Below are positions 8,299-61,530 of a stretch of 64,000 nt of DNA, piece by piece (the stretch's first letter is position 1; every line of letters begins with the position of its first letter). Origin of the DNA: Sabellastarte sp. h YS-2021 (Eukaryota > Annelida > Polychaeta > Sabellida > Sabellidae); NCBI GenBank assembly GCA_964017235.1, contig OZ024936.1:18080496-18144495 (forward strand), read 5' to 3'. Both the position numbers and the translations under genes were made by a program. Below the pieces are notes generated by a model. That model was not told where the DNA came from, made no database searches, and worked only from the letters and a program-made list of their open reading frames with translations.

Positions 8299-8903
8299 TT
8301 GCAGAATTCCCCTCCCGGAAGTAGAAAGGCGTAGGAATATAAGCAAAGTTATTTTCTGCAATAATATAGTTCCTGATTAAATGGAAAATAAGATAAGTAG
8401 ACAGGTAGACATGTAGGCAGGTAGGCAGGTAGACATGTAGGCAGGTAGACAGGTTGGCTGGTAGGCAGGTCGGCTGGTGGGCAGGTCGGCTGGTCGGCAG
8501 GTCACCAGAACAAATATCCACAACTTTATGGTAATATAATGCATGTTTTTTTTTGTCTGATTAACCAATCAGAAGCCATGTTACATTGTTGTTTGTTTTA
8601 CAATCTCCAAATATAAAATATTCCAAAATGCTTCAATTTTTTTTTTTTAATTATTTTTATTATTTTCTTTTATATTTTTATTAATATCTGTCTACCTGCC
8701 GACCTGTCTATCTGCCGACCTGTCTACCAGCCGACCTGTCTACCTGCCTGCACGTCTACCTAATAATCCACATATTTATTAATTTGTACTATTTTATTTC
8801 ATTTTATTTATTTTTATTGGATATATATATATATATCTAGATATATATATATAGATATATGACGGAACTACTTTCAGCTATATCCGGGAGGGGAATTCTG
8901 CAA
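8299..8903. mobile_element. Inverted-repeat (fold-back/MITE-like) element with minisatellite arms
   Basis: Perfect 21-bp terminal inverted repeats lie at 8299-8319 and 8883-8903 (core GCAGAATTCCCCTCCCGG). Inside the left end, about 8396-8510 is a minisatellite of CAGGTAGGCAGGTAGACATG and variants. Inside the right end, about 8689-8761 is the complementary version (CTGTCTACCTGCCGACCTG). The arms could therefore fold on each other over an AT-rich centre. There is also an (AT)n run at 8822-8858. No transposase is encoded, so the element would be non-autonomous. Open frames in the left arm translate the minisatellite and are not genes. Confidence 0.75.
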
Positions 8904-8959
8904 TTTAGCCTTGGAAAGAAGTACAATTAGTTAGGCCAATGGGCATTCTTATAAGATGA

Positions 8960-9450
8960 CATATTACACACATTTATGTCTATTATCGCTCAAAAGTGTG
9001 TAAAGTAAACAAATGGTATTATCGTCAAACCCGGTTTTACCAACACACAGCATGAAAATAAACTGTGAAACTGCAGAACTTACACAAAATAACCTCCAAA
9101 AAGGAGCTTATGTTTACAGTACTAATTAAATACAAGAGTATCCAAAACGTGAGGCTATTCAATTTTCAATGTGTTATGATCAGTCATTATTTCATTAGTA
9201 GGAAAATAACCTGGTATGTACTAAAACACATCCACAGAAATAAAGAGAGAAAGAAAGTAAAAATTCTTATAAATTAACAACATATGGCAGATATGTTGAA
9301 GTAAAGGTGCGAGTACATCAGGAACCATTAAGTCACACATATAAGGCAGAAATATATGATATTGATATTATATGAAAGTTATATGAAAAAAAACATTACC
9401 AATAACATTATATATATGAAAGTTATATGAAAAAAAAACATTTCCAATAA
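8960..9450. other. Gap, no gene seen
   Basis: AT-rich sequence with a short direct repeat near 9370-9440 (ATATGAAAGTTATATGAAAAAAA followed by CATTACCAATAA or a close variant). This lies just 3' of the zinc-finger exon that follows. Confidence 0.4.
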
Positions 9451-9452
9451 AA

Positions 9453-10735
9453 TTAATTATTTTTATTTTTGCAAACAGTACACATGTATCTTTCTCCCAA
9501 ATCTTTGAGACAAACATTCTCACATAAGCAATGCAACCATTTGTTGCAATTGTCACATAACACCCAGTCAATATCTTTGGTTTTGGTAGCCTTTTTCTTC
9601 CCTTTCACCTTCAAACCTTTACCCCCTTTCCCACTATATAGATTTGGGGGAATCTCTTTCAAGCAAATAAAACAAAGTGACTCGTCAACTTCATCACAAG
9701 AGTGCTGGTCACTTAATTCAACTACAGGTGATTTATTGATTGTGTCATCTGTCAGTGTTGTCTGCTCCTGTTTAAATGAAGATATGACTAAGTGAAAAAT
9801 GTATGATAATCAGTGCAACAATTTAAATTATAATAGTGATCATAGCAATGGAAATTGTAAAGAAAAATTACATTGAAATAGAAATTAACCTTTGTTGTTG
9901 CTTTCTTTGCATCAATTTTTTTTTGTTTTTCCTGACGTGTAGTTTCTATTTTTGCCCGCTTTTTTTCCTTCTCCTTAAACACAAAACATAACACAGGAGT
10001 AAGAATGGAAATTAATATTGCTGAAGAATTAATAACTATTACATTCATTAGTACTTTTATTCCATCATATATTTCAAACCTTCATCTGAGATCTAACATC
10101 ATCACCAGTGATCACCCTGCCATATGTTATGATGCGAGTACTCCTTGGTTTTTCTGAGGTACTTGTAGCACTGGTTGATGGTAAGTCTTGCCTTATTGGA
10201 AAACTAAGTTCCAGTTCAGGTGGCAACTTTCTCACACACTGAAGTGGATGTGGGTATCTGAGGCACTTATCACACTGATCTTCAGTTGGTATGATTGACT
10301 GAATGTTTTCATTCAGGTTAACAACAGTACTTTTTGTGGTGGTGTCAGCTACTCTGTATGGATGAGAATGTTAATTTGTACTTATTGCGAATACTAAAAA
10401 AGTGTAACTGAATTTTATGTGATAATCTACAATGTTGGATTAAATTTTAATACATTAATAGTGTGCGATGTAAATTCTATGCTTTAATAATTGAAGAAAT
10501 TATGAGTGTTAATTTAATTTGATTCTCACTTTCTCTTCTTAAGTTTGGTTGAATCCAGTGCTGTTGGATCAAAAGGGCAAAGTCCCGTACATCTGAAGGC
10601 ACTTTGTATCAGTTTTGGTGATGCAGCCTGTTTTAAAGCATTGCACCATGTGGTGGGAAAGTAACACTTGGTTATCCTGCTTTTACTAGATCTTGCCCCA
10701 GCCGCCAGCACAATTGCATTTTTAGATAGCAAATG
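9453..10735 (-). pseudogene. 3' part of a pogo-like (DDE_1) transposase gene with a C-terminal PHD-like finger
   Basis: Four coding blocks on the minus strand read in order. Block one (10526-10735) contains ITKCYFPTTWCNALKQA, then IQSAFRCTGLCPFDPTALD, the pattern seen at the C-terminus of pogo/Tigger/jerky-type transposases. Block two (about 10076-10355) contains a CDKC motif in a proline- and serine-rich stretch. Block three (about 9890-9983) is a basic region (EKEKKRAKIETTRQEKQKK) bounded by a TTTAAG acceptor and an AAAG|GTTAAT donor. Block four (about 9453-9764) follows a TTTAAACAG acceptor and carries CFIC, then CDNCNKWLHCLC, then YMCTVC before a stop, a C4HC3-like zinc finger. The catalytic DDE part is missing: upstream of 10740 I find no coding match and a tandem repeat begins. 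It is either a truncated transposon or the 3' end of a gene derived from one. Confidence 0.6.
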
Positions 10736-12615: not shown

Positions 12616-12861
12616 CTATTAAATATAATCAATAATAATATCACAGTTTTTTACACATTTACAATAACATGAAACTTCAACAAAATCCATATGATTTTTT
12701 TCTCACTTTTGTTACAAAATCACTTTAAAAATATTTATGTGTCAACACTATATGTTATATGTGTAATCTTTTCTGAAAGATCTTGTCACAAACATTATAT
12801 GACAAAAATTAGTACACATAATTGAAATAAAGAGAAGAAAGGTGTTAGTGATGAAATGTAC

Positions 12862-13200
12862 CCTTCATATCTAAGACAGCAACTATCTCAGAGTTTTGTT
12901 TCTCTTTGGCAATTTCTAATGGTGTCAATCCATCTTTGTTTGTGATAAGAGTAGCACCATATCTGAGGAGAACCTTCATAACCTCCAGCAAGTTTTCCCT
13001 CACAGCTATGTGCAATGAAGTGTCACCATCATTTCTTTGAGCGCTGACATCTGCACCCCTGCTACATAACAATTCCACCACTTCTAACTGGTTCTCTAAA
13101 CAGGCTCCTAGCAGTGGAGTTTGTCCTTTGAAACCTCGGCTGTTTATGTCAGCATTGTGGACCAGTAGTGTATCAACCACAGCAGTATGACCAAACCATG
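12862..13200 (-). pseudogene. Paralogue B exon 2: ankyrin exon, open but in a broken gene
   Basis: This 339-nt exon (113 codons, symmetric phase 1) runs from a TTTCAG acceptor (AG at 13201-13202) to an AAGG|GTACAT donor (GT at 12860-12861). It reads AWFGHTAVVDTLLVHNADINSR and on through about four ankyrin repeats, ending TPLEIAKEKQNSEIVAVLDMK. It matches exon 2 of paralogue A in repeat register but lacks A's polar linker, so it is 79 codons shorter. The splice to exon 3 gives LDMK-GLDNEF, in frame. The exon itself has no lesion; I call it a pseudogene exon because exons 1 and 3 are damaged. Confidence 0.75.
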
Positions 13201-13696
13201 CTGAAATATATATATGAAAAGAGAAGTTTTAAAAAAATTATTTAATAATTTTGACCTTGCAAATCATGACATTTAGCGATAGTGCTGGTGATTTACCTTA
13301 TCATTATTTTCAATATAATTCAGTTGGTAATTCAATAATGCACATATTATTATTTAAATATTTCTGAAAGGATAACCTCGTATTTGTGTATATTGAAATA
13401 GTATTTGTGTATATTGAAATTATGAACATATAAAACTCTCTTTACTTCAGATTTACTGTATTCTGTGATAATTTGTATTGACATCATTGTTTTCAGTTTT
13501 TTGTGACAGTATTCTGTAAATATTAATTTTTACAAATAAAAATGTCTCGGGAAGCTGAAATTTTTACTACATTACTTCTATGTGATAGGTAAAGTGTGAC
13601 ACAGGTTTACATGCATGACTTAATACCAAGAAATATTTGGTGCCTATTTTGCCACACTACCCCATACCATAAATAACAGACAATAAAAGCACTACC

Positions 13697-13968: not shown

Positions 13969-16531
13969 TATATATTTTTTTTTTTTATTTCTCCACACCA
14001 GTCACATTAGAAACATACATATATTCAATACAAAAGGAGTACATACATACAGCATATACTTATTCAAAACAGTGTAATTGCAGAACCAGATTTACTATTG
14101 TAAGAAATATTAATTTTTTTTTTAATATTGTCAAGAGAAAACAGAAAAGAAGACATTTTAGGCCAAACAGTTTTTACATTGAATAGCACAGTATGACACA
14201 GGAGGGGGGGAAACAAGAAAGAGGCTGTGCTATGGTTCTTAACACAAACATACCCTGACAGGGTCCCATTTTTCATTGAATCGTGTTACAGTCACATCTT
14301 TTTAAATTACTATATTATATTCAATTTCCATAACCTCCTTTATCAATTGCATAGCCTCAGGTAAATTAAGTCTTTTTGACAGAAATTTAGTTACATAAAT
14401 ATATTTTTTGCATATACTGAATATATTATTTATTAAATCTTTCTTATTTTTGTTTAATACTCCTAAAATAATACACTTTGCAATAAAAACACTATCCAGG
14501 TCTAGCTTACCGAGAAAATTTTTCCTAACTTGTTCCCAGAACTTTTTAACAATTGGACATCCCCAAAATAAGTGTTTCACATTCTATGCCACAAAAGCTG
14601 CATTTATCATTATCCTTGATCTTACAGATCTTCAAAAATTTATTAGTTGTTAATATTCTCTGGAGTATTTTAAATTGAAAACTCCTCAATTTCGAGTCAA
14701 TTGTACTAGTTAGGTTGGCAACAAAATATTTCTGTAAGGTTTCATGTGATATATTCTCATTGAGAGTATTGCTCCATTTCTGTTCAGTGGTTCTACGTTT
14801 AGTATTATATAGTTTCATAAAGGTCCAATATGTGCTCTTGCAAACTTTATCAAATTTTAATAGGTCTAGTAGCACTTTCTGTGGCATGTTGTGGTCATCC
14901 AATTTTTTTTTTAATTCTGAAATTTCTAAACGCCATGGTCTTGGGAGAGAGTGAATAAGTGAATAAAAATCTACAAAGTTAATTCTAACATTGAATTTTT
15001 GCACAAAGTCTGAGTAGCCAAGTATATTTCCAGACTCATCAAGCAAGTTATTTATATATTTGATACCCTGTTTTTGTAATTCTTTTTTCTTCAAAATTAG
15101 GTTTGGATGTACCAAGTAAAAAGTATTCCAAAGGGGGTAGGTTCGAACATCTATTTCTTTTTCAAAATTAAGCTTATACTTTTTCCAGGCTATGAGAACC
15201 TCTTCCCAAAATAAATTGCCCATTCTTTTAGTCATATACTCCAGAGAATAGCAATCTAGTTCCCAAATCTGATTTTTGTCCATATCACTCAATTTTTCAA
15301 AAATGGTTTGCCAATCACCACATTTTATAAAAGTCCGTTTGATCCATGCTAGCTTTAAGGCATCATTTAAGCAGAACAGATTTGTCAACTTTAGTCCCCT
15401 TTCAACAAAATCCTGCTCTAATTGTGACAGTGTCATTCTCAGTTTTGATGTACCCCAAATGAACTTTCTAAAGAGTTTGTGTAATAAATTGAGTATTTCT
15501 TCTGATGGTTTTGGGAGGACCGACATTGGGTATAGAAGTTTAGGGATGGCCAAAGACTTAATAACTGTTATTTTGCCCACAAGTGAAATTTTTCTTTTTG
15601 CATAAGAATTTAAAAGTTTTTCAATGTTAGCTAACCTGGGGTGATAGTTTTATCCATCATTAATTCTATATTATTGGTAAATTTGATCCCAAGAAGCTTG
15701 AAGTGTTCTACCCAGTTTAGGTTTAAATCTAGACATAGATTGTTATTTGCATTCTTCAGGAAACCAATCCAAGCTACTTGGGTCTTTTGCATGTTCATTT
15801 TAAGACCTGAACATTGGAAAAATTTCTCAAAAATGGTTATACTTTCCCTGAGAGAATTTTCTGATCCATCTAAAAGTAAAAAAGTATCATCAGCATATTG
15901 CCCAATTTTGTACTGATCACTCCCTATCTTTATACCTTGGATATTGTTATTATTTTTTACCGTCATAGCTAATGGTTCTATAGCTAGAATAAATATATAT
16001 GGACTCAGAGGATCTCCTTGTCTGCAACCCCTGCCCAAATGAAACTGCTCTGAAAGGTATCCATTATTTATAACACATGAACAGGAGTCTGTGTAGAGAA
16101 TTTTAAACCACTTTATGAAACTGCTACCAAAATTATAAGCTCTTAAAATTTTGGTCATGTACTCCCACTCTATGGAGTCAAAGGCCTTTTCAAAATCAAT
16201 TAGTAGAATAAGTCCTTCTTTTCCTTTCTTTTTTAATATGCTAATGATGTCATACACCAAACGAATATTTTCACCTATGTATCTGTCTTTTAGGAATCCC
16301 TTTTGAGAACTGCTTATGATATGTGGTAAAACTCTTCTCATTCTCATAGCCAAAATTCCTGACAATATTTTATAGTCCACATTCAAAAGTGTGATTGGAC
16401 GCAAGTTCTTCATGAATTCTTGGGATTTTTCACCCTTTGGAAGACAGGCCAGAATTCCTAGTCTTTGGGTTACTGATAATTTTGATTTTGTAAATGCTTC
16501 ATTTAGACTGTCAATTAAGAATTTTCCTAAG

Positions 16532-16562
<31 letters not shown>

Positions 16563-18037
16563 GGAAGCCATCACTTCCCGGTACTTTGCCGTTTTTCATA
16601 TTTTTTAAAACCTCTTTTGCCTCAGCTTCAGTTATTAGACCTTCACATTTATTTTGGTCATTTTCGGACAACTTTGTAATATTTTTCCTGTCTAAGAAAA
16701 AGTTTGCATCTGTTGAACTTAAGCATTTTGAACTATAGAGGTCATTGTAGAATGATCTCATTTCCCTTAATATGTCTTTCTGATTATAGATTAGCTGGCC
16801 GTTGACATTCAATTTTGAAACGGACTTACTTGAAGAATTTCTCTTTTCTATATTACAAAAGAATTTTGTTGGCTTTTCCCCCTCTTCATAATATTGAACT
16901 TTACTTCTCACGACTATTGCCCTAATTTTCCGTTGACGCAGGGCTTCCAGGTCATTTTGAAGAGTCCTTAGGTCTGTTTCAATTTGATGCAATATATGCT
17001 TAGAAACATTCCTCTGCTGGGTGCAGACAAGTAGATCTCTGAGCTTAAGAATGTTGTTTTCCATAGTTTGTTCCTGTTTTTTTTCACATTTTGCTTTATA
17101 CGAAGAATATGATATTGTTTTACCCCTAACATTTAGCTTGATCATTTCAAAGATCATTTGATTGTCCATAACTGTAGTAGTATGATCAGACTTTATGTCT
17201 GAAATTGTATTTTGGATCTCTGTTTTTACCATTTCAACATACTGTATATCTTGTAATAGAGAGGTATTCAATTTCCAATAGCTCCTTCCACGTGTTATAT
17301 TAAAATTTTCTAGGTATAAATATATCAAGGAATGATCAGTCCTATATCCATGATACATCCCAACTTTAGATATGTTTAATTGAATGTCAGGGGTAACCAA
17401 ATAAAAATCCAGTCTAGCCATTTGCCTTGGTGACTTTGTACTAAACCAAGTATATTTTTTAAGGTCTTGGTTGGCTGTTCTCCAAGGGTCTGTGAGGTCA
17501 AGAATTGTTTTTATATATTCCACCTTGGATTGAGCACTTTTATTATTTTCATGGACATATCCAAAGGTGTCAAGCTGATAATTTTGAACCAAGTTCCAAT
17601 CGCCACAGATGACAATTGATGAAATATCTGATTCTAAAAGTTTTTGTTTCATATTAATGTAAAAGTTGGGATCATCTCTGTTTGGACCATATATGGTTAC
17701 TAATAGAAATTAAAAATGTTTGAAACCAAAAGCTTCACAATGGTAAGATTACCATCATTTTGTTTGTAAATCGATTTAATTTCAAAATCAAGCGCTGCAG
17801 AAAAGACAATTGCAACACCTCTACTGGCGGAGGAGTTGGAGTTCAAAATGCATTTCCCACCCCAATCATCCATAAACTGTTCTTCAGTAGCAGAATCCGA
17901 ATGTGTGTCTTGAAGACAATAAATATCCATTGTTTTACTCTTTATCCAGTCAAAAACGTCTTGTCTTTTTTCGTATTTGCTAAACCCCTGACATTCATAC
18001 TACCTATTCTCAAGCAGCCGTTTATAGCTTGTACATT
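13969..18037 (-). pseudogene. Decayed non-LTR retrotransposon (L1/Tx1-like LINE)
   Basis: A single element reads right to left. Near 18020-17990 the start of an APE-type endonuclease is seen (LRIGSMNVRG), followed by MDIYCLQDTHSD and, after a frameshift near 17700, VTIYGPNRDDPNFY, SSIVICGDWN and TDHSLIYLYLE. The reverse transcriptase follows (PGSDGFPAEFYK, LRPITLLNVDYKI, LIDFEKAFDSIEW, GCRQGDPLSPYIF, and the catalytic YADD at about 15888-15899). A shift in an A-run near 15640 leads into the thumb and C-terminal region (14546-15580) with CSFCGIECET. After another shift come HLFWGCPIVKKFW and a 90-residue tail ending at 14302. A plus-strand T-run at about 13974-13987 marks the poly(A) end. At least four frameshifts make it inactive. 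It sits inside the first intron of paralogue B on the same strand. Clade assignment is from the C-terminal C-x2-C...H-x4-C pattern and is inference. Confidence 0.85.
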
Positions 18038-22750: not shown

Positions 22751-23937
22751 TTCATACATTTTTAGAAGAAATTTTTATTTTGGTGTTTACTTTATACAAT
22801 GAAAGAATGTGTCTTTCTCCTTTTTTGAACTATAAAACTATATTTTCTTTGTAACTGTGTTGCCATATATGAAGTAGGCTTTGAATATACATGAAACATA
22901 TATTTAATTGCCTTAGGCCTAACACTTCTCAAGTTCCTTTATACTGCTGTCCTTGTGTGCAACTTCAAATAACGTAAACACAAACTTTACTTTTCTCAGC
23001 ACATTTACCTTACGGAACAATGAAACGTACTGTGCAACTTTTTCAGTGACTAATGTGTTTAGAACCACAATTTATATATCAATTAACATCCTTTGAACTT
23101 TAATATTTCACCTTGGATATTAATTTCATCGCTCAATATAGTTTCACTTCTGCCTTTTGTTCACACATGTGTCTTGATAAACTAGTGTTTTTAACCATGT
23201 GTTTCTGTGTTTTCATATTATAATTAAGATTATCGTCAGTCACCACTAGCGTTTTAATCAAAGTTTTGACCAAATAAAAACAGTCACGCTAAACATTATC
23301 TTTATTTTTAATGAACATATTTAAATGCAGATAAGAGTTAAGCCTCATAAAATGAATATCAATAAATGTTGAAAAACTACTATTATTATGAATTTCAAAA
23401 GACACATTAACAAACAATACTAAAAATTTTCCGACAAACCTGCAGAGTACAGAGGTGTATTTCCATTGTTCATTGATAAATTGACATCAGCTCTATGTTG
23501 CAGTAAAACACTGACAACATCCACATGTCCTTTCTGTGCTGATATATGTAATGGACTGTAACCACTAGTACACTGTTAATTGACATCAGCTCCATGTTGG
23601 AGTAAAACACTCACAACATCCACATGACCTTTGTATGCTGATAGATATAATGGACTGGAACCATCAGTACACTGTGAATTGATATCAGCTCCATGTTGGA
23701 GTAACAGTCTCACCACACCACTGTGGTTGTTTTGACAGGCCACATACAGTGGTGTGGTGTTGTCATCATACTCCACTCTGTTCACATCTGCATTATGCTT
23801 GAGTAACACACTGACAGCTTGTTCATATCCATAAAATGCAGCACAAAATAATGCTGTTCTTCCATATTTATTCTGACTGTTTACACTAGCCCCGTGTTCT
23901 ACCAGTAGTTTCACCACTTTACTGTGGTTATTGTGTG

Positions 23938-24664
23938 AGATTTAATTTTACTGTTCTGGAAATTCTATTCGGGGTTATAAATATGGAGCCAAAGTACTGG
24001 TTTCCAATTAACTTTGTGTTGTTGACAGGGAAAAACTTTATTTATAAATGTAAAAAGAATAACAAAGAATTGTTTTTAAACAATTTCTTGCAGAATTTGA
24101 CTTGGAATCTGAAGTTAGAGGAGGGAATCTTTATCAAACAAGGGAAATTGTCAACTTTTAATGAAAGATACAAAATCTTGTTTGATTCTCTGAAATAGCT
24201 TAACAATTTTATAAATGTCTACGTATAAATGTGCATCTTCCTGCTTTACCTTTATCTTATTTCTTTTTCTGCTCTTTTCTGTTTTCCTTGTAGATTTTTT
24301 ATTTGTTTGTTTATTCGGAGTTTTTACGTCGCTTTCAACACTGTACAGGTCATATCACGACGGGTAGTTGAAAGGGCAGAGGAAACCAGTACATATAGTT
24401 CGTTAGGGTTCTGTACTGTAAACTGCTGACCAACGGCAAGCAACTACCAGCTTTCCCACTTACGGCCATGACAGGGATCGAACCCCGACCGCAGAGGTGG
24501 GAGGCGAGAGTGTTACCACTCTGCCACCGTGGCCCCTTGTAGATTTTTGAACCTTGAAAGTAAATATTATTGATACATTATATTAGTCTATTAATTTTTA
24601 AGGTTTGTGTTATTGTAAACGTATATAACATTGTTTTGTGGCAATAAAAAAAAATAAAAAAAAA
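23938..24664 (+). mobile_element. 5'-truncated LINE insertion with target-site duplication
   Basis: The insertion is flanked by ATTGTGTG at 23930-23937 and 24665-24672, and it ends in an A-rich tail (from about 24648). It interrupts an ankyrin exon whose intact paralogue reads straight through. Its first 260 bases encode the last part of a LINE protein (KYWFPINFVLLTGKNFIYKC, then LEEGIFIKQGKL, then a stop at 24196-24198), the N-F-x-L-L-x-x-K-x-x-I-Y-x-C-K tail common in such elements. This is a different LINE from the one at 14-18 kb, judging by its unlike C-terminus. The rest is 3' untranslated sequence, itself interrupted by a SINE. Confidence 0.85.
24301..24534 (-). mobile_element. tRNA-derived SINE nested in the LINE
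   Basis: Read on the minus strand it begins GGGGCCACGGTGGCAGAGTG. It has an A-box match (TGGCAGAGTGG) and, about 45 bases on, a B-box match (GGTTCGATCCC). The body contains GTGGGAAAGCTGGTAGTTGC, TGGTCAGCAGTTTACAGTAC and TTGAAAGCGACGTAAAAAC. The flanks CCTTGTAGATTTTT at 24286-24299 and 24535-24548 are a 14-bp target-site duplication. The B-box region and body match the truncated copy at 2915-3065. It is not a functional tRNA gene, because the anticodon-arm region is degenerate and a SINE body follows. Confidence 0.9.
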
Positions 24665-24890: not shown

Positions 24891-25520
24891 CTTTGTATTT
24901 TATTTTAGTTTGTATATAGTGATAAATTAATTCAAATTAATTGCGTATACCGTATATTAGTTTCATACGGTTTGAACACTCCTCTGTTTCAAATAAAATT
25001 AGATAACAGAAAGACCGTTTCTGCGTGAGTGCTGCGTATTTATACTGAAGAATAAATAACTTATGAGTAAAGTTTATCTTAATTGATACAGTATTGTCTC
25101 ACAAATAGTATCTCTAAGATAACTGTCCTTTACTGATGACAAAGGAGATTTCTTCAAGTAATCCCCGCTTCAAGTTTCACATCAAACGCACAACGCTAGA
25201 CGCAAAGCTCATTTGAAAGTAATATTGACTTTCTTGATTTTTTTTATGCATTAAATAGTCGTACATAGGATTGTAAAAGTTTACGCACCCCTATCTATTT
25301 TGTTAAATACTGTTATAGATACAGAAAAATATATATGTAATAGATCCATTTGCAGATACATTAACACATTTTGGCTTTGTTTCAATTCACCACATTTTCC
25401 GTGTAGATACCAGGGGCCCGTTTACAAAGGATGCGTCTTTTGTTGTACATCACACAAACTACTTGGACCTGAATTCCTTCATATGGACATATTGCTAAAC
25501 ACTAGAAAGGTTCAGTGACG
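24891..25520 (-). promoter_or_regulatory. Upstream block of paralogue B, conserved with paralogue A
   Basis: The sequence immediately upstream of the B start matches that upstream of A (52732-53540) in order: TATATAGTGATAAA, TTAGTTTCATA, GGTTTGAACACTCCTCTGTT, TTTATAC, AATAACTT, GATACAGTA, TGTCTCACAAA, then ATTTGCAGATAC and TTACAAA. Promoter elements cannot be placed with confidence, but the retained similarity covers where the transcription start should be. The far part runs into the tandem array that follows. Confidence 0.5.
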
Positions 25521-27560: not shown

Positions 27561-27599
27561 TTGGCGTGCCTTTTAAACTTTGCACTAAAGCTCTTTCAT

Positions 27600-27995
27600 A
27601 CAAAAACGTCATTCAAACCACACATGTGACGTCATTCTGTTGTTAAAAGTGTGCATTATTTAAGGCAATGCACACTTTTTGGTTTATATTTACAGACCCC
27701 TGAAACAGTCACCTGGATTTTTGCCAGAACAATGAGATAATTGCTATAAATTGAAGAAAGAAAATAAATTTGAAATAAATGAATGCATGAATAGGATTAC
27801 AGAACAAATGTTTTAATTCTAGAAAATCATTTGAATTATATAGTTAATTTGCCCAAAAATGTTCTGAGTTCTAAACAAATTATTAGTCACTTTTATTCCC
27901 GCTATCCAAATAGTAGAAATTCTACAGAATAGAAGAAATACTAGACACCAATATAACATATGGGCCAATATACAAAAAGTCAATATATAAATAAC
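27600..27995 (+). repeat. Dispersed repeat with short hairpin head, copy 2 (interrupted)
   Basis: It matches the 20535 and 35568 copies: TGACGTCATTCTGTTGTTAA, AAGTGTGCATTATTTAAGGC, AATGCACACTTTTTGG, GCCAGAACAATGAGATAA, TTTGCCCAAAAATGTTCTG and so on. It stops at about 27995, and its continuation (AGTACATTGAGATTCAGGTT) reappears at about 29049-29115, so the intervening 1.05 kb is an insertion. Confidence 0.7.
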
Positions 27996-31349: not shown

Positions 31350-31438
31350 TTACAGACATTCTGCTTCCAATGTGTAATACTTAGCAAAATCACTATTGTA
31401 TATGAATTTACAGAATTAACAGAATCTGCCAAAACTAA

Positions 31439-34030: not shown

Positions 34031-34036
34031 AATCCG

Positions 34037-34929: not shown

Positions 34930-34934
34930 AGATG

Positions 34935-41630: not shown

Positions 41631-41637
41631 AAGGCAG

Positions 41638-41855: not shown

Positions 41856-41869
41856 ATTATTCACATCCT

Positions 41870-42335
41870 TAAATACATTCTTTTCTTTATGTCCACTTTG
41901 TTGACCTGGCAACCTAAATAATTTTAAAATAGCATCAGAGATGCCCGTACCCCACAGCCTAGGGAAATATTTTTCACACCATGAGATATAGAAGTACTGT
42001 ATCAGTACAAAGTTCAGGACACTTTCAGAGAACTGTCAGTTATATAAAGGTCCAAACCATGTTTAAATAGAGAAAATAATGTCTAAGAGAAAGATAATGC
42101 ATGTACTTTATCTACATCTGGCATGGCTGAATTATGGTTTAGATGTTTTGAATATTACCATGCATACAGAAGTGGTAATACATTCAATGAATGCTTATGT
42201 GTGGTGTTGTATCAAAATCTGTGGCTCACTTGATGAAATTCCATCTGCTACAATGGGAAGTTGTAAAAGTAAAATTCTTAATGCATTCTAATATGGCTTT
42301 AACAGTGCTTAATCTGCATCAAAAGACACACCCAA
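41870..42335. other. Gap, no gene seen
   Basis: No gene or repeat recognised; short open frames only. Confidence 0.35.
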
Positions 42336-42339
42336 AGGT

Positions 42340-43915: not shown

Positions 43916-44030
43916 CGCCACCCGCACGCCTGCCCGCCCAAAAGCCCGGCCCTCCGTCCGCCCGACCGACCGCCCATCCGGACACCATGGGTGAAAACAA
44001 TACCCCGACAGCCCTTAAGGGCTGTGGGGC
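43916..44030 (+). repeat. GC-rich end of the satellite block with an 18-bp palindrome
   Basis: The array passes into a C-rich stretch (CCCGCC, CCGACCGACC words) and then CCATGGGTGAAAACAATACC. Immediately after comes the perfect palindrome ACAGCCCTTAAGGGCTGT at 44008-44025, framed by CCCC and GGGG. Repeat, then GC hairpin, is the order seen at the ends of some rolling-circle transposons, but the diagnostic ends are not evident. Confidence 0.5.
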
Positions 44031-44635
44031 AAAAATTAAAGATCATTTGCCTAATTGTTTTCTCATTTTTAAACTTAAATGTCAATTAGCATATTTCTAC
44101 TTCCGTCAGGGAGATTTTGTAGTCGCTCCGATGATGTTAGTGGTGTGGGTTTGTGACATCACATTTCATTTACCAGTATTTGTAAAGAGTGTTTTGTATA
44201 CAGTTGGTTTTAAATAGAAAAGAAGAATGTTAAATATTTGCAATATCACTTGCCCTCGGGCTTCATAAATCACAATATTGCCCAGAAAGAAGTGTTTTAT
44301 TCTGTAAACATTTCCCTACACTCTCGCTTTATTCTGTGAGCAAGAAAATTTTGGTGCCCACGGCTACAGCTGTAAATCTTGTTTACATTTCCATAACAGG
44401 AAGGTGCTACTACTGTATGTCTTTTGCAATATCTGAACTGATATTTCAGCTCATTTGAAAGCATCACAGTAATAACTGTTAATGTGGTCTTTACCACTAC
44501 CATAATTTTACTTCAAAGAAAAGCTCAACTGAAAAAAAAATTCTAGTTATAAGTTCTTACATTTCTATGTAACCTATTCATGCAAGTGAATATTTTCACC
44601 TGAGCTGAGGAATATTTTTTCTCTTTTTTTTTGGG

Positions 44636-45843: not shown

Positions 45844-46009
45844 TGGCTAAACCCGTCCATATGACTTTCTTGGTGGAGGAAGTAACTCTACAATGTCCAA
45901 TATTTATCTGACTGTGGGGAACCAGTTTGGTCATCAAACAGCCAGGTAAATATTGTACATTGTAGAGTTAGTACCTCTGCCAAGAAAGTTATATAAATGG
46001 GTTTAGCCA
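45844..46009. mobile_element. MITE-like hairpin element
   Basis: The arms, about 68 bp each, run 45844-45913 and 45942-46009. The outer TGGCTAAACCC is mirrored by GGGTTTAGCCA, then come ACTTTCTTGG/CCAAGAAAGT and AACTCTACAATGT/ACATTGTAGAGTT. A 28-bp loop separates them. The arms carry several mismatches and are similar at about 80 percent by eye. A 12-bp repeat (CACTTATTAACC) follows the right end. It lies 0.75 kb downstream of the stop of paralogue A. Confidence 0.7.
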
Positions 46010-47029: not shown

Positions 47030-47640
47030 AAAAGAAGGTTTGCACATGTACTTTCAAAATTATAATTATGTACCTTATATTTTGTGTCTATTGTAACAAA
47101 TATTTTAGGTTAGATTATTACATTGCAGGAGTAAAGAAGAATGCATATTCCAATTTCCACATGATACGATTAACAATGAGAATGCTTGTTCTGACAAGCA
47201 TGCCTGTTAAACGAGACACAAAACACACAACTTTGACTTTTGTAATGATAAAGAAGATAATTGAAAGCAACATTTGCATTCTTGCTGATCATTTTATTTA
47301 ATTTGCTCTTTCATTTTGTCATAGGACAAGTATATAAAGATATTTGAGAATTTGGCATCTTCAGTTCTAAGAAACTAATGATCTCTTATGGAAAAGGGTG
47401 AATAGATTTTATGTCACATTGGAAAATGATACAGAATAATCACATAGATCATAAGTAAAAGATTATTAACTTGTTATTATGAACAATCAAACCAAGTTTT
47501 TAAAATTTGGCCAAAAATTTGCTTATAATTTATTTGAACTGTTTTAAGAAGTATCTCACTTGGTTATATTATGCCCCAACAGATATGCCTGAATAAAGTT
47601 CAATAACAGTAAAACACACACACAATAATTGTTCTAGTTA
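47030..47640. other. Paralogue A intron 2
   Basis: A 615-nt intron with GTAACT donor and TTTTCAG acceptor on the minus strand. No other feature is seen in it. Confidence 0.7.
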
Positions 47641-47641
47641 C

Positions 47642-48217
47642 CTTTCTCATCATTGCGCAGTCCTAGTTTTGCCAACTCTCTCTCTGGATCCCAGTTTTCA
47701 TCTCTCAATTTAGCTTTGAATTTTACTTCAGCTGCAAGTCTGGCCACATTGGTAATCTGTGACTGAGTGATGATTTTGCTGGTTTCTTTTGATCTAACAT
47801 CACTAGTAGCTTCCCCAGCTGCACCAGCAGAGGATGTAGACTGAGTGTTTTGTTTTTTCTCTATTGCATTTCCCTTAATAGATTCCTCTAAGAGACTAAC
47901 TAGATCAGTGTGATGTTTTTCTTTGGCAATGTCTAGTGGCCCCTGTCCTGCTTTGTTGAACAGAAATTCGGGATGATGAGCTAGAAGTAACTTAACAATC
48001 TCGGGTGAGTTTGCAAACACAGCACAATGAAGTGGGGTGTCTCCATCATCGTCAGCATTGTTAACTTGGGCACCTTTTGCAGTGAGTAGTTTGACAACAG
48101 ATGTGTGATTTTTGTAACAAGCCATGATGAGAGGAGTGATACCATTCTGACATCTACTGTCTATTTGTGCCCCATGAATGAGCAGCTTTTCTGCAACTGC
48201 AGTGTGACCTTCGTGTG
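47642..48217 (-). CDS. Paralogue A exon 2: C-terminal ankyrin repeats and linker
   Basis: The exon is 576 nt (192 codons, phase 1 at both ends), from a TATTTTAG acceptor (AG at 48218-48219) to an AAAG|GTAACT donor (GT at 47640-47641). The splice from exon 1 completes an ankyrin repeat exactly: LYIS-AHEGHTAVAEKLL. Three further repeats follow (NGITPLIMACYKNHTSV, DGDTPLHCAVFANSPE, QGPLDIAKEKHH). A polar linker (about residues 322-398) comes next, with a Ser/Ala-rich part (TQSTSSAGAAGEA) and a charged helix (RLAAEVKFKAKL, DPERELAKLGL). The frame-derived ATG upstream of the acceptor is not the real start. Paralogue C's version is decayed and that of B lacks the linker. Confidence 0.88.
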
Positions 48218-48234
48218 CTAAAATACACAACTGT

Positions 48235-49290
48235 TTTATTTAAATGTATTAACTAGCAATTCATTGAATGAATAACATCAAACATTTAAAAAGTTATTTA
48301 TTAAGTAAAAATACTTAAATTATATAGAAAAATATGTGGATATTGAGAAAAATTAAGAAAGGTAAGATTTAAGCGGAATAATCGATCATTAGTAACCTTT
48401 TATAACCAACCGCGATATGCACTGTCACTGTCTGATCGTTCACCCACTAGAAGTTGTCAAGTATATTGCTTTGAAAAGAGATAGGGTGCGGTTACAAGGG
48501 CAGATGCTCTAAATAGGTCATTTACGGTATTTACAATGGAAACTATTAAGGTTTATGGAAGTGCACAATAAAAGTTTCCTTGAAGTATAAGAAAACGAAT
48601 ATGAATAACAAAGACGAAGAACTGTGTGGACATTATCAAAATATTATCACTTTAATTGTTTGCGTGAAATACATAAAAGTTAGTATTTGATCTTTGCTCT
48701 ACACCATTATTTAGGTTTAAGAGGCATAAATAAATCTTCAATATCAGAACTAAAACTTCATAAAACCAATATTTTCATTCAATTGAAGTTTCTTGTTATT
48801 GAACTGAACACAATAAAGAAATGGTCTAAATTGGATATGAACAGGAAAGTGAGGGTCAGTAAGGCAGATAACTGGCTACCAGTTCCAGGAGGGGTGGGCT
48901 TTTGTTAATATAGATTTAAAATTAATTTTTGATATAACGTTCCTGTTTTCACATGCCCTTTAGTTTATTGTCCTGTCTAAGTTCGTCACTTTCTAACTTA
49001 TGCCAATATAAAGCGCCCCCAGAATTTACGTTCCTTGTAAAGTTATAAATTACTGTAATAATTAATTGTTATGTTTGTTTCAAAATTAACATTGCTTGTC
49101 CTGAACAGTTTTTAAGGTAGGTGATGGACCTGTGTGATTGACAAACTATTTTCACGATTACACTCGAGAAGCAAAACTACCACTAAACATAACATGCTTT
49201 AAAAGATGAACAATTGCACAAGTAGGACAAATAGTAATTTTATTATCTAGTAAGCAATTGAATGTGAAACAAGACTCCCGCCGAGCATTA
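48235..49290. other. Paralogue A intron 1, right-hand part without features
   Basis: The sequence next to exon 2 shows no gene. The frame at 48687-48908 has no recognisable domain. Confidence 0.4.
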
Positions 49291-49299: not shown

Positions 49300-49920
49300 A
49301 AATACCTTTTGCGAGATATTCACAATTCTTCATTTTCCGCTGAAATCCAAGATGGCCGCCAAAAGTGGTGAAAAACTGAAATTTTTCCCCTAGGCACAGA
49401 ATATGTTCTACTACCTTGTGGGTCAAAAATTCGTTCTTACCCTTTCGAAGATATTGTCAATGTTTATTTTCTGCAAAAATCGAAGATGGCCGCCTATCTC
49501 TTACAGTTTTTGAGATATTCACACTTTTTCATTTTCCGCAAAAATCCAAGATGGCCACCAAAAGTGGCGAAAATTGAAATTTTTCCCTTTTTATAGGACA
49601 CTCTTGTACTACCTTGTGGGTCAAAAATTCGCTCGAAATTGCTCTATCTCATACGGTTTTCGAGATATTCACACTTTTTCATTTTTTGCAAAAATCCAAG
49701 ATGGCCGTCAAATGTGGCGAAAATTGAAATTTTTCCCTTTTGCATAGGACACTCTTGTACTACCCTGCGGGTCAAAAATTCGCTCGAAATCACTCTATCT
49801 CGTACGGTTTTCTAGATATTCACACTTTTTAATTTTCCGCTAAAATCCAAGATGGCCGCCAAAAGTAGCAAAAATTGAATTTTTTCCCCTTTGCATAGGA
49901 TACTCTTATACTACCCTGCT
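49300..49920 (+). repeat. Tandem repeat, ~150-bp unit (CCAAGATGGCCGCC)
   Basis: GATGGCC falls at 49351, 49485, 49550, 49700 and 49851; the last three are 150 and 151 apart. The unit reads GAGATATTCACACTTTTTCA, TTTTCCGCAAAAATCCAAGA, TGGCCGCCAAAAGTGGCGAA, AATTGAAATTTTTCCC, then CTTGTACTACC and GGGTCAAAAATTCGCTCGAA. The left copies are rearranged. The array lies in intron 1 of paralogue A. Confidence 0.75.
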
Positions 49921-51479: not shown

Positions 51480-52090
51480 CTAGGTGTTGCATTGAGCTAC
51501 TTATATGAAACAGAAATCATCAAAGGTACACAATTTATGTTGTATAATTTGCATAACAGTTCTGAAAGTTTTGCTGAAATATGTTAAATATATTTAGAAA
51601 CTGTAAACATTGAAATATTTGGATATTGTGGGTCGTCTGCACTATTGCACATTACCCCCCCTCTCTCTCTCTCTCTCTCTCTGTGTGTGTAATATACGTC
51701 ACCAATACAGAAAGAGTCACTTAAGTACATTGCTGGTTATATTACATGTTCTTATACACATCCCAATATTCATTTTATAATTTGTATATGGGAGCTTTTT
51801 CAAACATAACTGTAATTTTAAACATACACATTCCATATCATAATGTATATCTAATGATGCATTTTAAGTAACAGTTAATCACGCTGATATAAAAAATTAG
51901 CAAACAAAATAAACATATTGTGCGTACCCATGTTTACATATTGTTTTTATACATTTTGAAAGGGAATTCGGTACTCCTTGAACATTAAACTTTGTTTAAA
52001 TGCAGTTTTGTAATTTCAAAATGGTCATTTTTACTTTTAAAAAAGAACCACAATATATTAGTTTAAAAGATAAATTATTAAAACAGTTAA
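51480..52090. repeat. Intron segment shared with paralogue C
   Basis: Phrases such as ACAGTTCTGAAAGTTTTGCT, GGTTATATTACATGTTC and CAGTTAATCACGCTG occur in the same order as in the C intron (2260-2640), showing that the duplication that made the paralogues included intron sequence. A (CT)n(GT)n microsatellite sits at 51655-51690. The frames are diverged. Confidence 0.5.
51655..51690. repeat. (CT)n(GT)n microsatellite
   Basis: A short C-run passes into about ten CT units and then GTGTGTGT. Confidence 0.9.
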
Positions 52091-52112
52091 ATATTCACAA
52101 ACCTGTACAAAC

Positions 52113-52731
52113 CTGATATATATAATGAATTGTAACCATCAGTATCCTGTGAATTGACATCAGCTCCATGTTGGAGTAAACCACTCACAACATCCACATG
52201 ACCATTCTGTGCTGATATATATAATGGACTGGCACCATCAGTACACTGTGAATTGACATCAGCTCCATGTTGGAGTAACAGTCTGACCACACCACTGTGG
52301 TTGTTTTCACAGGCCACATACAGTGGTGTGGACTTGTTCTGATACTCCACTCTGTTCACGTCTGCATTATGTTTGAGTAACACACTGACAATTTGTTCAT
52401 GTCCCTCAAATGCAGCACACCACACTGCTGTTCTTCCATCTTTACTCTGACTGTTTACACTAGCCCCGTGTTCTACCAGTAGTTCCACTACTTTACTGTG
52501 GTTATTGTATGCTGCTCTTATCAGTGCTGTACTCTGATATTCCTTCTCCCTGACTTCAGTGTCTGCTCCCTGTGACAACAGGAACTCTACTACACTCACA
52601 CTGTTGTACTGACATGCTACATACAAAGGTGTAAAACCACCATCATCTGTACAGTTTATAATGGTTCCTTTTGAAAGATACTTCTTTACAACAGTTACAT
52701 TATCAGTTTGTGCAGCTTTAAATATATCCAT
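52113..52731 (-). CDS. Paralogue A exon 1: start and N-terminal ankyrin repeats
   Basis: The exon begins at the ATG at 52731 (MDIFKAAQTDNVTVVKKYLS) and carries about six ankyrin repeats, e.g. GFTPLYVACQYNSVSVVEFL, KSTPLYVACENNHSGVVRLL and GASPLYISAQNGHVDVV, with strongly conserved QHGADVNSQ turns. It ends TCA-G|GTTTGTAC (donor GT at 52111-52112), phase 1; a second possible donor 7 bases downstream would break the frame. The start is supported by the same MDIxKAA opening in B and C and by loss of similarity upstream to a protein frame. With exons 2 and 3 it gives 1452 nt, 483 residues. This is the only copy of the three without a lesion. Ankyrin repeats bind protein partners. Confidence 0.9.
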
Positions 52732-53640
52732 CTTTATATTTTATTTTAGTTTATATATAGTGATAAAGTAATTCAAATTAATTGTGTATATATTAGTTTC
52801 ATATGGTTTGAACACTCCTCTGTTTCAAAGAAAATTAGATATCAGAAAGATCCTTTCTGTGCAAGCACTCTGTATTTATACAGAAGAATGAATAACTTGT
52901 CATTGAAGCGTATCTTGAGTGATACAGTACTGTCTCACAAAATAGTGTGCGTCTAATTTTACGTACTTGTAACAAAGAAAATTTCTGTTTAAGTAATCTA
53001 CACTTAAGTTTTATATGTTTGGAAATATAAATACTCACGTAAAACATTTCTGTTTAAACAGGTTTAAACGTATAATGCAATACAAGCATCAAATGCACAA
53101 CATTCGATACAAGCTCTTTCGAAAAAAAAAAGTTGACTTTCGTGACTTTTTGTTGATTAAAAAGTAGTACAATAGATCACAGAAGTATTTTTGTTTCTTG
53201 TGTAAAATCTGTTCATTACTTGTGTTTGTGTCTGTGCAAAGGAAGTTTAATATAAAAGTGGTTTTGTGTTACGTTGTGGCCACGTCACCAGTAGATTCAA
53301 TATCAGTTGATTTTTTTAACATTTAATGACCAATTACATGATGAGCTTTCTTACATTTAAACACCCCTATTAATTTTATTACTTACTGTAGGATGCAAAG
53401 AAACATAGTGGCGCCATTTGCAGATACGTAAACACACTTTGGCCTTTTTTCATTTCACCGTATTTTCCTGTCTGAATACCACAGGCCTATTTACAAAACA
53501 AACGTGTTTTGTAGTACACCAAAGAAACTATACACGGGTGTCATTAATGTTAGCCATCACTAATGTTAGACAAGTTGTAATTATATTGTCTATGTTTACG
53601 TAATTACCGTAAATTATTAAGAAATGCAATAAGTAAACAC
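52732..53640 (-). promoter_or_regulatory. Upstream block of paralogue A
   Basis: The region up to about 53540 is alignable by eye with 24891-25520 upstream of paralogue B: TATATAGTGATAAA, GGTTTGAACACTCCTCTGTT, TTTATAC, TGTCTCACAAA, ATTTGCAGATACGTAAACAC and TACACCAAAGAAACTA. It should contain the promoter, but I cannot point to a TATA box or initiator with confidence. The distal part belongs to the same repeat family as the 25.3-27.5 kb array. Confidence 0.45.
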
Positions 53641-53654
53641 TACCACGGGTGGTC

Positions 53655-53865
53655 ACAAAGATAAACGGTCATAGAGATAAACGGTCTTCAAACCTTTCAC
53701 ATCTAAGTGGTCTAAATACCAAAATTGCACAAACTAAATGACAAAATATATTTAAACAATGCTTATCTTGACATCCGGTTAAGTTATATCATTATCAAAC
53801 CCTTTAAATGTTTTTGGTGTGATAATTTCTGAGGGCCGTTTATCTGTACGACCATTTATCTTTGT
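53655..53865. mobile_element. MITE-like element with AGATAAACGGTC repeats in its arms
   Basis: The left arm starts ACAAAGATAAACGGTC at 53655 and repeats GAGATAAACGGTC. The right arm reads GGCCGTTTATCTGTACGACC, then ATTTATCTTTGT, the complement of the left arm with two or three mismatches. The element is 211 bp with an AT-rich interior and no coding capacity. Confidence 0.75.
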
Positions 53866-53869
53866 GTAT

Positions 53870-57935: not shown

Positions 57936-58029
57936 AACTTTATTTTAAATAAATCTTATTTTGCTGTCTTCCTGAAGTACTATGTCAACGCTTATGGCAA
58001 TGTTATGGCTATTTTTGATGACCACTTAA

Positions 58030-60440
58030 AGTGCGCATGTTACAGACACAAGGGGGTGGGAGACGATCGGTGTGTTTAAGACAAACAATGCCCTAGTTGC
58101 AAGGCCTTCAATACAGAGTAGGTGCAGCAGTTAGCCATCTCCATCTGCAGAACCAGTAAAGAAAAAGAGCAGAAGAAGATGGTTTCTGCCTCCCCTGTAA
58201 CTGATACCTTGGTAGATCTGAAATAAGTGAAGCTTTTACGATGGGTAGAGGGAGGAAAGGCTACAGAAACAACACCTGCTGGCAAGAAGTAGAGACCTGA
58301 AGAGTCTCCAAAGCCCAGCAAGAAACATTCCAATATCAAACCTACATCTGATGATCTGATGAAGAGCCTTGACGACAAGTGGGCTTAGAGGTTTGCACGA
58401 CTTGAAGAAACCTAATGAAGTGGTGACCAATGAGAAGCACTTCTTCTAACCAGAAGTTGGTACCAGCAAGATGTTCAATGATGTGGTCGATCAGTCTACT
58501 GATGTAATTACCAGTGCCAGTCCTGTTCAGCCCATTGGGGATGTTGCTGCCAGCATGACTGCAACCCAGCCTGTTGAGACTCCCGAAAGAAAGAGGGGGA
58601 GTGCTGCCAGAATGACTGCTACCCAGCCTGTTGAGACTGTCAGTACTGTGAGGGTAGCCACCCAGCCTGTTTAAGCTCCCAGTGCATGGACGGCCACCCA
58701 GCCTCTATAGGCTGCTGGTGCCAGATCTGAAGTTGATTCTCAGCCCACCGGTACTGGTAGTGAATATGTGAGTGCTGTGGACCAGTCCCCCACCAGTAAG
58801 AAAACTGTTTCTCCTAAAACTGGTGTGTCTGACACTGGAGACGAGCTGGACAGTGAGCAGGAATCCCCTTTCATTGGCTGGCACCAGACACCAGACTTTG
58901 ATAGCTTGTCTTTCTTCACTGAACAACAACTCTTTTGCCGATTCCCAAGCCCAGCCTACCGGGAAAGTATCCATCAAGCTACCAGCTGGTGACTAGCTGT
59001 GCAGGAAACTGAAGAAATTGAACGTTTGCTGAACCATTGCTAAAACTGCTGGACTGTTGAGAGACCAGTTCATGAAGACGCCCAGATCTTCCATATGGTA
59101 AGATATGCACACCGACAAGAAAGACTCTTTGGTAAATCAAAGGTGTGTTCCTAGTCACCGGACCTAGCCAGACACAACAGTACTTTCAGCAGGGTTGCCA
59201 GAGACAGTTTGCCTTCTACCCCCCTTCCTGCAGCTGATCTTATAACCAAGACACTTTAAGATGTTGGGAGAGATCAGCTAGACAACAGATATTTATATGC
59301 AATCAAGCTGCTGGTCTGAATAGATGCCTCACCAAGGTCCAGAACTCCATGGTGGCTCAGCTTAAACTCTGCATCTGGATAAGGACAAAGGCAAAGCCTC
59401 AGGACGTTCACAGCAGGCTGTAGATGAGTTAGAATACTTGGTGAGTTTCAACAGGCCCATCACTCAGGCAATGGCATGTACCATGCAAGATCTGTCAGAG
59501 GGAGTCTTCATAAACATGGCCAACCTTACACTAGGTTGTCGAGACAGCTATGGATTACCTGAAGGCTGGGGTAAAGCAAGACACTCTAACTGCATTACAG
59601 AAATGCCCCTCTACATATAAAGTCATTGTTCCCGGATTTATTTCTGAGCAAAGCAGAGGAGGACGTGTCACAAAGGGACATTCTGCTGGTTCCTCCCACA
59701 AGAAGCCCAGTTATTTTTACCCATGTGCTTCTACTCGCAAGTCTTCTCAGCAATCGGACCAGAAGTCTGGTGTACCTGCTTGGAAGGATATCAGGGACAG
59801 ACAACAGGGCAAGAAAGGATGCGGCATGGGCTCAACCTACCAGCAATGACAATACTGTGTAGATTGTGTGACCGGACAGAAGAACTTAATGTATGCGTCC
59901 GGCAAGGCAGACAGTTTGAACCCTCCAGCAGAGGTACCCGGACAGAAGGACTTGTCTGTAGCCAGCAAGAGAGCCACTATAAAAATTAGATGTAAACTCT
60001 TGTGTTGTCAGTGCTGTTCCTTTTGTCAAAGGGTATCTGCAAAAGAAAGATGCAAATACCGTCATTTGTCAGAATTATACAGGAATAAAATATGTGAAAG
60101 ATGTTTCCTGTGTAGGTCACTTAAGTTCTGTAAATCTTTTCACAAAGGTCTGTTGCTCCAGATCTGCCTGTAGGCCACCAGGTTTGGGAGACGTGAACTG
60201 CCTTAGGGGACTCAGAGCTATTTTATTTGGGCCCAGTGGTGTCTGCCCAGCAGATCCACCATAAAACTCAGAAATCTGTACAGAGATCTGTACATATGTA
60301 CATATTTTATATACCTTGTATATAGTATATAAGTATAATAAAAAACTGTGACATACTTCCTTTAGGAGATTTATTTTCTTTTATGGGACTGAAGTCATCC
60401 CCCTCTTCCCCCATCACAGAGCAGGTCTGTAAGAAAAGTG
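58030..60440 (+). pseudogene. Decayed DIRS-like retrotransposon, gag region only
   Basis: The frames shift several times but in order give phrases typical, from memory, of DIRS-type gag: DDLMKSLDD (near 58350), a Pro/Thr/Gln-rich repeat (TATQPVETPERKRG, ATQPVETVSTVRV, 58550-58670), ITQAMACTMQDLSEGVFINM (from 59458), MDYLKAGVKQDTLTALQ (from 59550) and, in another frame, FPDLFLSKAEEDVSQ (from 59627). No reverse transcriptase, RNase H or tyrosine recombinase follows; the sequence goes straight to an AT-rich 3' part. It is either an internally deleted copy or a non-autonomous derivative. Individual open frames here are fragments and not genes. Confidence 0.5.
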
Positions 60441-60554
60441 GTCCAACACCGGTATATCCCTAGGTAACCGGTTATCGGTAAAGGACCAGGGCCTCATAGG
60501 GTTTGCTAACCTTAGGTCAACCTAAGCCTGTGAGTTTTGCCTACCAGGCGGTAC

Positions 60555-60775
60555 TTATTCAACACTTGTCCATTGGATAGGATGTGTTAGCGCAATAAAA
60601 TTGCAAATTTAATAAGCAAATTAAATTTTTAAAAGTTCATACCGTATCCAATGGACAGGTAAGGCCTTCCCAACTGGCTGTGCTATCGGCTTACTAGGGC
60701 TGTTGATAGGACTAGTCAACAAAACAGATGCTATGACATCACACTGTCTAGAGGGGAAGAAAAGTTTAAATATTA
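60555..60775 (+). repeat. End region of the DIRS-like element with short inverted repeat
   Basis: TTGTCCATTGGATAGG at about 60566 is mirrored by CCGTATCCAATGGACAGG at about 60643, with an AT-rich 60-bp loop. Then follows TATCGGCTTACTAGGGC. The same two phrases occur at 49925-50150. Confidence 0.55.
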
Positions 60776-61401
60776 ATTTAGTTAAAAGCATGTGACTGTT
60801 GGTTCAGTTACTCATCGTTACAGGAAAACTGTATGTGTTCAGATCTGTGTAATTTATCCTGATTAGGTCTCAAACAGCTAGTAAAAATTAGACATCATTC
60901 CACAGAAGTTTTAAAAAGCATCAAATCAAAAGACACATACAACTGTTCTCTTTGAATGTAAACTCCATTGTCTAGAACTTGACTTTTGCTTCTTTGAAGA
61001 GATTAAGTACTCAAGTTGGTGCTTTGGTGAACTATATAATTGCAATTTCAAAATTTGTGCTTGGAAAGACAAGTGTTACACAACTCCAGATCATTATTAT
61101 ATTAAAGTTCTGTTTATCAGCAAGAATAACCCCTTAAATAGCAATTCATGTGATGAAAGGGCAAGTGCATGGTTAGCCGTCTATAAAAGGGGGTGGGGGG
61201 TAGGTGGGTCAGAGATCTGAGATGTCATTATTCTGACAAATAGCCTGTCTTACTAAAATGTTTTAAAATAAAACTATTATTCACCACTTGATTTTTAGTA
61301 CTTGACCCTGTTATTTCTATCTTCTGTAACTTGAACTGAGGCCCAGGTGGTATAACAAGTGCATAACAAGATTCAGATTCAATTGGACTTTGAACCAATT
61401 T

Positions 61402-61530
61402 GAATTTGAGATTCTAATAGTAGAAACTCCAGTTGGATTTTCTATCAAGTTTGATGTAGTAGAAAGTCCAATTAGAATTTCTACTGATGGAAAGTCCAAT
61501 TGGACTTTCTACTGGGAGAATTTCAAATTC
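61402..61530. mobile_element. Small inverted-repeat element with GTAGAAAGTCCAATTGGA motifs
   Basis: The outer arms GAATTTGAGATTCTAATAGT and the reverse complement of ACTGGGAGAATTTCAAATTC match at about 80 percent. Inside, AGTAGAAAGTCCAATT at about 61457 is mirrored perfectly by AATTGGACTTTCTACT ending near 61513, and further variants of the motif lie on both sides. The total is 129 bp without coding capacity. Confidence 0.65.

Follow-up and report, generated by a model that had tools for sequence, protein, structure and literature searches.

Inverted arms that are themselves internally repetitive are known from several foldback-type DNA transposons. The account of Tm1, a Mutator/Foldback element of root-knot nematodes, describes asymmetric 7-bp motifs between the target-site duplication and the inverted repeat as well as a variable copy number of a 13-15-bp motif, and its authors remark that short non-inverted ends also occur in other Mutator-like elements (PMC3169594). 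The THAP domain of the transposase of Galileo, a member of the P superfamily, binds sites lying in the tandem repeats of the long arms (PMC3688188), multiple binding sites being presented as a convergent trait across superfamilies (PMC3573991), and the paper on Tetris quotes the opinion that separate lineages may arrive at foldback structure independently (PMC4079207). Here we analyze a 64-kb stretch of contig OZ024936.1 from the polychaete Sabellastarte sp. h YS-2021 (hereafter the window, with positions counted from its first nucleotide). A preliminary description of this DNA had listed five unrelated elements, here called E1 to E5 in order of position, each with arms made of a tandemly repeated short motif, and had set them against ordinary miniature inverted-repeat transposable elements (MITEs), said to have unique terminal repeats. 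This contrast is a poor one, as internally repetitive arms have been described in Galileo, Tetris and Tm1. We hold with fairly good confidence that E1 and E3 form one family with foldback anatomy, that E2 is a probable and E4 a possible relative in structure, and that E5 is separate.

The elements at 8.3 and 41.6 kb

E1 (8292-8910), a 619-bp sequence that we would class as a non-autonomous terminal-inverted-repeat (TIR) element, is flanked on the forward strand by two copies of TTGGAAAG (8284-8291 and 8911-8918). Its left TIR, TTGCAGAATTCCCCTCCCGGA(AGT), occupies 8299-8322 on the forward strand and matches the right one (8880-8903, reverse strand) exactly over 21 nt; 7-bp ends lie outside the inverted repeat. 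Farther inside, 8-nt units of GTMGRCAG and variants, with a period of 8/16, fill 8397-8508 (forward strand) and face an inverted array of period 16 at 8688-8763 (reverse strand). E3 (41533-44129), which would belong to the same family and carry a large internal block, lies between two forward-strand copies of GATGATGT (41525-41532 and 44130-44137). Self-comparison gives it a left TIR of 39 nt (41540-41578, forward strand) that is 82% identical to the right one (44084-44122, reverse strand). Left motif copies of GTCGACAA are found within 41641-41693 (forward strand, at 41641, 41650, 41678 and 41686) and inverted right copies within 41714-41905 (reverse strand, at 41714, 41730, 41765, 41774, 41838, 41846 and 41898), the 41774 and 41898 copies each having one mismatch. 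The true ends of E3, 41533 and 44129, both fall outside the range 41638-41855 first given for it; the element is far longer than first stated because of a probable Helentron-like block and the 146-bp satellite inside.

Judged by their sequences, E1 and E3 appear to be two copies, 33 kb apart in the window, of one non-autonomous cut-and-paste (TIR) transposon family. Direct repeats identical at 8 of 8 positions stand exactly 7 bp beyond the inverted repeats, on both sides of E1 and of E3. Under the same duplication search such identity was reached by 60 of 20000 random pairs, and 8/8 at some equal gap from 0 to 15 by 209 of 200000. Duplications of 8 bp at this 7/7 offset are what transposase-mediated integration is expected to leave behind. 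The ends are related as well: the left end of E1 aligns with the right end of E3 over 26 nt at 81% and with its left end over 28 nt at 79% (expectation value, E, ~0.005 each), and the family end has the form GG...TGCAGAAT. The score of E1 left against E3 left was reached by 0/500 and 0/300 shuffles. A loose search with the E1 end led to the left end of E3 at 41540 (5 edits), and one with the E3 end to the right end at 44099-44122 (4 edits), a made-up control matching once, with 6 edits, on the end of E1 itself. One more match to the E3 end (59488-59511, 6 edits) was discarded as no better than chance.

The two elements also share a motif. Twenty-one of the 25 exact matches to GTMGRCAR in the 64 kb, a pattern composed after both elements had been seen, lie inside E1 and E3, and there it is on the forward strand in left arms and on the reverse strand in right arms, without exception. 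With the block left aside, E1 and E3 have in common 14 8-mers with at least four G/C (controls: mean 0.94, maximum 6, 0/916 reaching 14), these 8-mers overlapping each other and the control windows not being matched for G+C. Over the outermost 7 bp the ends pair crosswise (E1 left with E3 right and E1 right with E3 left, 5/7 each; the other four pairs, 2-3/7), as expected if the ends are asymmetric and non-inverted and the two elements are oppositely oriented. We take this pairing as supportive only, because the adjoining 31 nt disagree (E1 left is 22/31 to both E3 ends, E1 right 18/31) and because 5/7 is also reached at random (4167 of 200000 random 7-mers).

From outside in, each copy would consist of the 8-bp duplication, a 7-bp non-inverted end, a terminal inverted repeat of ~21-39 bp, ~60-120 bp of AT-rich DNA, and then 8-nt motif copies whose orientation is reversed between one arm and the other. 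Neither E1 nor E3 contains an open reading frame (ORF) of at least 120 aa; they would therefore have been moved by a transposase made elsewhere. The motif copies most likely provide additional binding sites for the transposase, by analogy with Galileo, and so assist pairing of the two ends. Their number and spacing probably shift by slippage and gene conversion, which would account for the differences between the arms of one copy and from copy to copy. Viral contigs scanned with the E1/E3 end and with the E2 tandem motif gave 0 matches each, a result of little weight for an animal-like genome.

Several observations weigh against this reading, beginning with the disagreement just mentioned beyond the 7-bp ends, the frequency of 5/7 among random 7-mers, and the qualifications attached to the motif pattern and to the 14 8-mers. 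Without the G/C cut, the 8-mers common to E1 and E3 number 38, inside the control range (mean 20.5, maximum 44). E1 right against E3 left is a weaker pair, although almost as clear as the two left ends in the shuffles, its score being reached by 1/500 and 1/300 shuffles and its ends alone aligning over 20 nt with E 0.26, and for the inner right part of E3 shuffles reached the score in 8/300 cases against E1 right and 36/300 against E1 left. As to a binding role, the account in PMC3688188 reports binding for the THAP domain and no events in an in vivo Galileo transposition assay. Foldback and Phantom tandem repeats are, according to the same source, untested as binding sites. Finally, the E1 arms come close to a degenerate 4/8-nt microsatellite (period-4 identity 0.50), and E3 lacks the 16-nt period of E1.

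The superfamily is another matter. Target-site duplications of Mutator elements are ~8-11 bp long; E1 and E3 have 8 bp, a length likewise common in hAT, P and Merlin elements. Merlin elements combine 8-9-bp duplications with GG ends, and the literature gave no usable support for Merlin as the superfamily of E1 and E3.

By its anatomy, the block inside E3 (41944-44037, limits approximate) is likely a nested Helentron-like insertion. Helentron/HINE elements are marked by sub-terminal inverted repeats, a 3' palindrome, the lack of a duplication and a T-rich target. The block holds 10.1 tandem copies of a 146-bp unit (42431-43886) and a 26-nt palindrome (44004-44029). Its sub-terminal inverted repeats are weak, their score being reached by 19/500 shuffles, and no duplication was found flanking the block, the limits of which are uncertain. 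Minus the block, E3 measures ~0.5 kb, near the 619 bp of E1.

Inverted repeats and motif arms across the window

A survey of the full window (blastn, E <= 1e-2, arms within 2.5 kb) returned 10 inverted-repeat loci, whereas 30 simulated Markov-1 windows gave 0.27 on average and 2 at most. All five elements contain inverted arms, as had been described, those of E3 dropping out of the list under a stricter cut. The shared motif-arm design did not stand. When both arms in the best pair had to have a tandem-repeat cover of at least 30%, three of the 10 loci were motif-armed (E1, E2 and E5, the last of which is self-palindromic, with a single stretch serving as both arms); a shifted tandem mask gave at least three in 13 of 2000 cases (mean 0.43), the inverted- and tandem-repeat detections overlapping in what they count and so not being fully independent. 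E3 fails this rule because its motif copies are spaced (cover 0), and E4 because its left arm alone is covered (0.89, right arm 0.00). Cover was 0-0.04 at the five other loci (1566-1688, 25279-27605, 30732-31598, 44004-44029 and 45844-46009). Since seven of the 10 loci fail, motif-filled arms are no general property of inverted repeats in this region.

E2 probably belongs to the same structural class, as a degenerate member of a family unrelated to E1 and E3. Its left arm (34034-34115, forward strand) has five 16-nt units in the order A,A,A,B,A and its right arm (34866-34931, reverse strand) four, A,A,B,A from outside in, the order having been read by eye; A is of the GGAAAATTGGCCTCC type, B is ...TTTGTGGGG, and the right arm has one A fewer than the left. 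The arm-to-arm alignment scores 57 (shuffle maximum 15), and the interior contains no ORF of at least 120 aa. E4 is possibly another element of the foldback structural class. Two 16-nt units with a AGATAAACGGTC core make up its left arm (53654-53690, forward strand) and two its right arm (53830-53866, reverse strand), which is 86% complementary to the left one (score 27, shuffle maximum 13). With two units each, the arms are equal, without the foldback type of inequality; E1 and E2 do have unequal inverted arms holding tandem motifs, as in foldback elements, and E3 has them only in the form of spaced motif copies. An extra 16-nt tandem pair lies at 53541-53572, ~80 bp outside the left arm of E4. 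The short motifs first quoted as repeating units have in fact to be replaced by units of 8/16 nt in E1 and of 16 nt in E2 and E4.

E5 (61402-61530) has no arms around an interior, contrary to what had been described; it is a row of about three imperfect, self-palindromic units of 26-30 nt (GTAGAAAGTCCAATTGGACTTTCTAC type), with spacings of 39 and 28. It forms a small array of its own, built from a palindromic unit and distinct from the other elements. Target-site duplications at near-equal gaps did not rise above chance at these three places, which counts against our reading: the best match was 5/8 for E2 and 5/8 for E4, each reached by 16356 of 20000 random pairs, and 6/8 for E5, reached by 5872 of 20000. 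E2 and E4 may be old copies that have lost their duplication. A looser search with unequal gaps gave 7/8 for E2 (gaps 14 and 1) and 8/9 around a wider E5 (gaps -3 and 3), both obtained with no chance comparison and neither claimed as a duplication.

Among the other features of the window, the loci at 1566-1688 and 45844-46009 are plain long palindromes, 89% and 79% self-complementary, which are MITE-like and without clear duplication. Related palindromes around CAAACATGTTTG stand at 30732-30789 and 31541-31598 in a G+C-rich stretch, apparently one repeat present twice, and 25279-27605 is a cluster of mutually inverted repeats, 69-83% identical, with several pairings. A 151-bp tandem array of 2.8 copies (49494-49919) is a second satellite-like block. 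A Pfam scan covering 10 of the 13 long ORFs of the window matched ankyrin repeats in five and a reverse transcriptase in one, and left four without a match. The ankyrin-repeat ORFs, all on the reverse strand (3079-3708, 12845-13228, 23576-23941, 47634-48239 and 52087-52740), are either fragments of duplicated genes or members of a gene family confined to this area; the ORF at 427-810, which was not part of the scan, reads like them. Remains of a non-long-terminal-repeat retrotransposon, also on the reverse strand, cover 14546-17709 with two ORFs, Pfam RVT_1 being found in the larger and no match in the smaller.

Alternative origins of the motif arms

One could wonder whether the motif arrays have any binding role. 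They might be ordinary degenerate microsatellites that arose by slippage inside MITEs, one arm being copied from the other, an explanation that we consider possible and give a modest chance. The E1 arrays can indeed be read as 4-nt steps and have a period-4 identity of 0.50, and oyster Helentron-type elements are described as having short, highly variable microsatellites as regular parts, several of them with GTCY/GTCC/GTCK units (PMC7492417). However, E1 and E3 retain both the 8-mer core and its orientation despite their different arrays, and the 16-nt units of E2 and E4 show no 4-nt step (period-4 identity 0.13-0.35).

The preliminary description had also suggested a local process, such as template switching at replication forks, that builds motif-armed palindromes. 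We find it unlikely that template switching or fork stalling built them in place, without transposition. E5, as a row of self-palindromic units, would suit such a process, and E4, with inverted arms and without a duplication above chance, could suit it more weakly. On the other hand, it is not needed for E1 and E3, because integration is indicated by the exact duplications of 8 bp and the related ends of two elements 33 kb apart, and the failure of seven of the 10 inverted-repeat loci under the motif-arm rule speaks against it as well.

That all five elements are a single fold-back lineage with a quickly replaced arm motif is very improbable: arrays do change within a family, from E1 to E3, and E1, E2 and E4 have a 16-nt period in common, but in 28 arm comparisons of E2, E4 and E5 with E1/E3 and with one another the lowest count was 37/300 shuffles reaching the score, and E2, E4 and E5 lack a duplication above chance. 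Rapid turnover of the arm repeat thus fits what is seen within one family, E1 and E3 sharing ends and core motif and differing in their arrays, and it does not serve as a link across all five. Likewise, the proposed class of fold-back elements seems right in kind for E1 and E3, by their target-site duplications and terminal inverted repeats, and is probable for E2; one class does not cover the five.

The 16-nt period common to E1, E2 and E4 is an unexplained remainder based on few elements, and a lead only. Sixteen is the top period in both arms of E1 and of E4, and in both arms of E2 it comes second after 32, figures that refer to hand-chosen arms of three elements, with two units per arm in E4. 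Outside the elements, 16-nt pairs were also more numerous than simulated (4 against 0.6); we attach no special meaning to them, because 10-, 11- and 12-nt pairs exceed the simulation too (43 against 23.6, 16 against 9.1 and 8 against 3.3). A hypothesis to which we assign a low probability is that these elements, unrelated in sequence, keep their arm motifs in one 16-nt register imposed by unrelated transposases or by one host factor. Sixteen nt is ~1.5 helical turns, and if the hypothesis is true every second unit would face the same side of the DNA. If it held genome-wide, such a register would offer a sequence-only handle on how transposases align along foldback arms.

In our preferred reading, in which E1 and E3 form one family, the 'unrelated' oddities first listed resolve into a single transposon family whose ends and insertion footprints are defined, accompanied by likely representatives of further families. 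E1/E3 and these other families would each be searchable by end sequence.

Comparison with known elements

A parallel can first be drawn with Tm1. As its report describes them, Tm1 elements share with E1 and E3 the duplication, the 7-bp asymmetric end, the inverted repeat and arms with a variable motif count, and with E2 a motif run followed by a different motif and then by one more motif unit; non-autonomous, MITE-like copies and nested insertions in some copies are further likenesses (PMC3169594). These likenesses are split across two unrelated elements, the ends being found in E1/E3 and the unit order in E2, and no transposase was seen in the window. Tm1 differs from E1 and E3 by a duplication that usually measures 9 bp (8-10 in 45 of the 53 complete ones) instead of 8 bp, by a motif of 13-15 nt instead of 8 nt, and by its sequences, whereas E1 and E3 differ from it by the AT-rich DNA between end repeat and array (PMC3169594).

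Galileo, as presented in two of its papers, resembles the elements of the window by its internally repetitive inverted arms, copy number that is unequal from arm to arm and conserved short outermost segment, and differs by arms of 0.5-1.2 kb and 7-bp duplications, the arms here being shorter than 0.25 kb (PMC3573991, PMC3688188). Tetris, from Drosophila virilis, is likewise described as a non-autonomous foldback element with tandem repeats in its arms and 8-10-bp duplications; its internal repeats are ~220 bp long and feed a satellite, whereas the units here are of 8-16 nt (PMC4079207). In E3, by comparison, the 146-bp satellite belongs to the probable nested block, outside the arms. That block alone recalls the oyster Helentron-type element Cg_HINE, in the description of which a satellite-like array separates two modules, a palindrome stands at the 3' end and a duplication is absent; unlike in Cg_HINE, the sub-terminal repeats of the E3 block are weak and its limits uncertain (PMC7492417).

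Motif-filled arms have already been described as a convergent feature of foldback-type DNA transposons. Since the literature calls the foldback layout convergent, several unrelated families with one layout are to be expected in one genome, and no new process is required to account for them.

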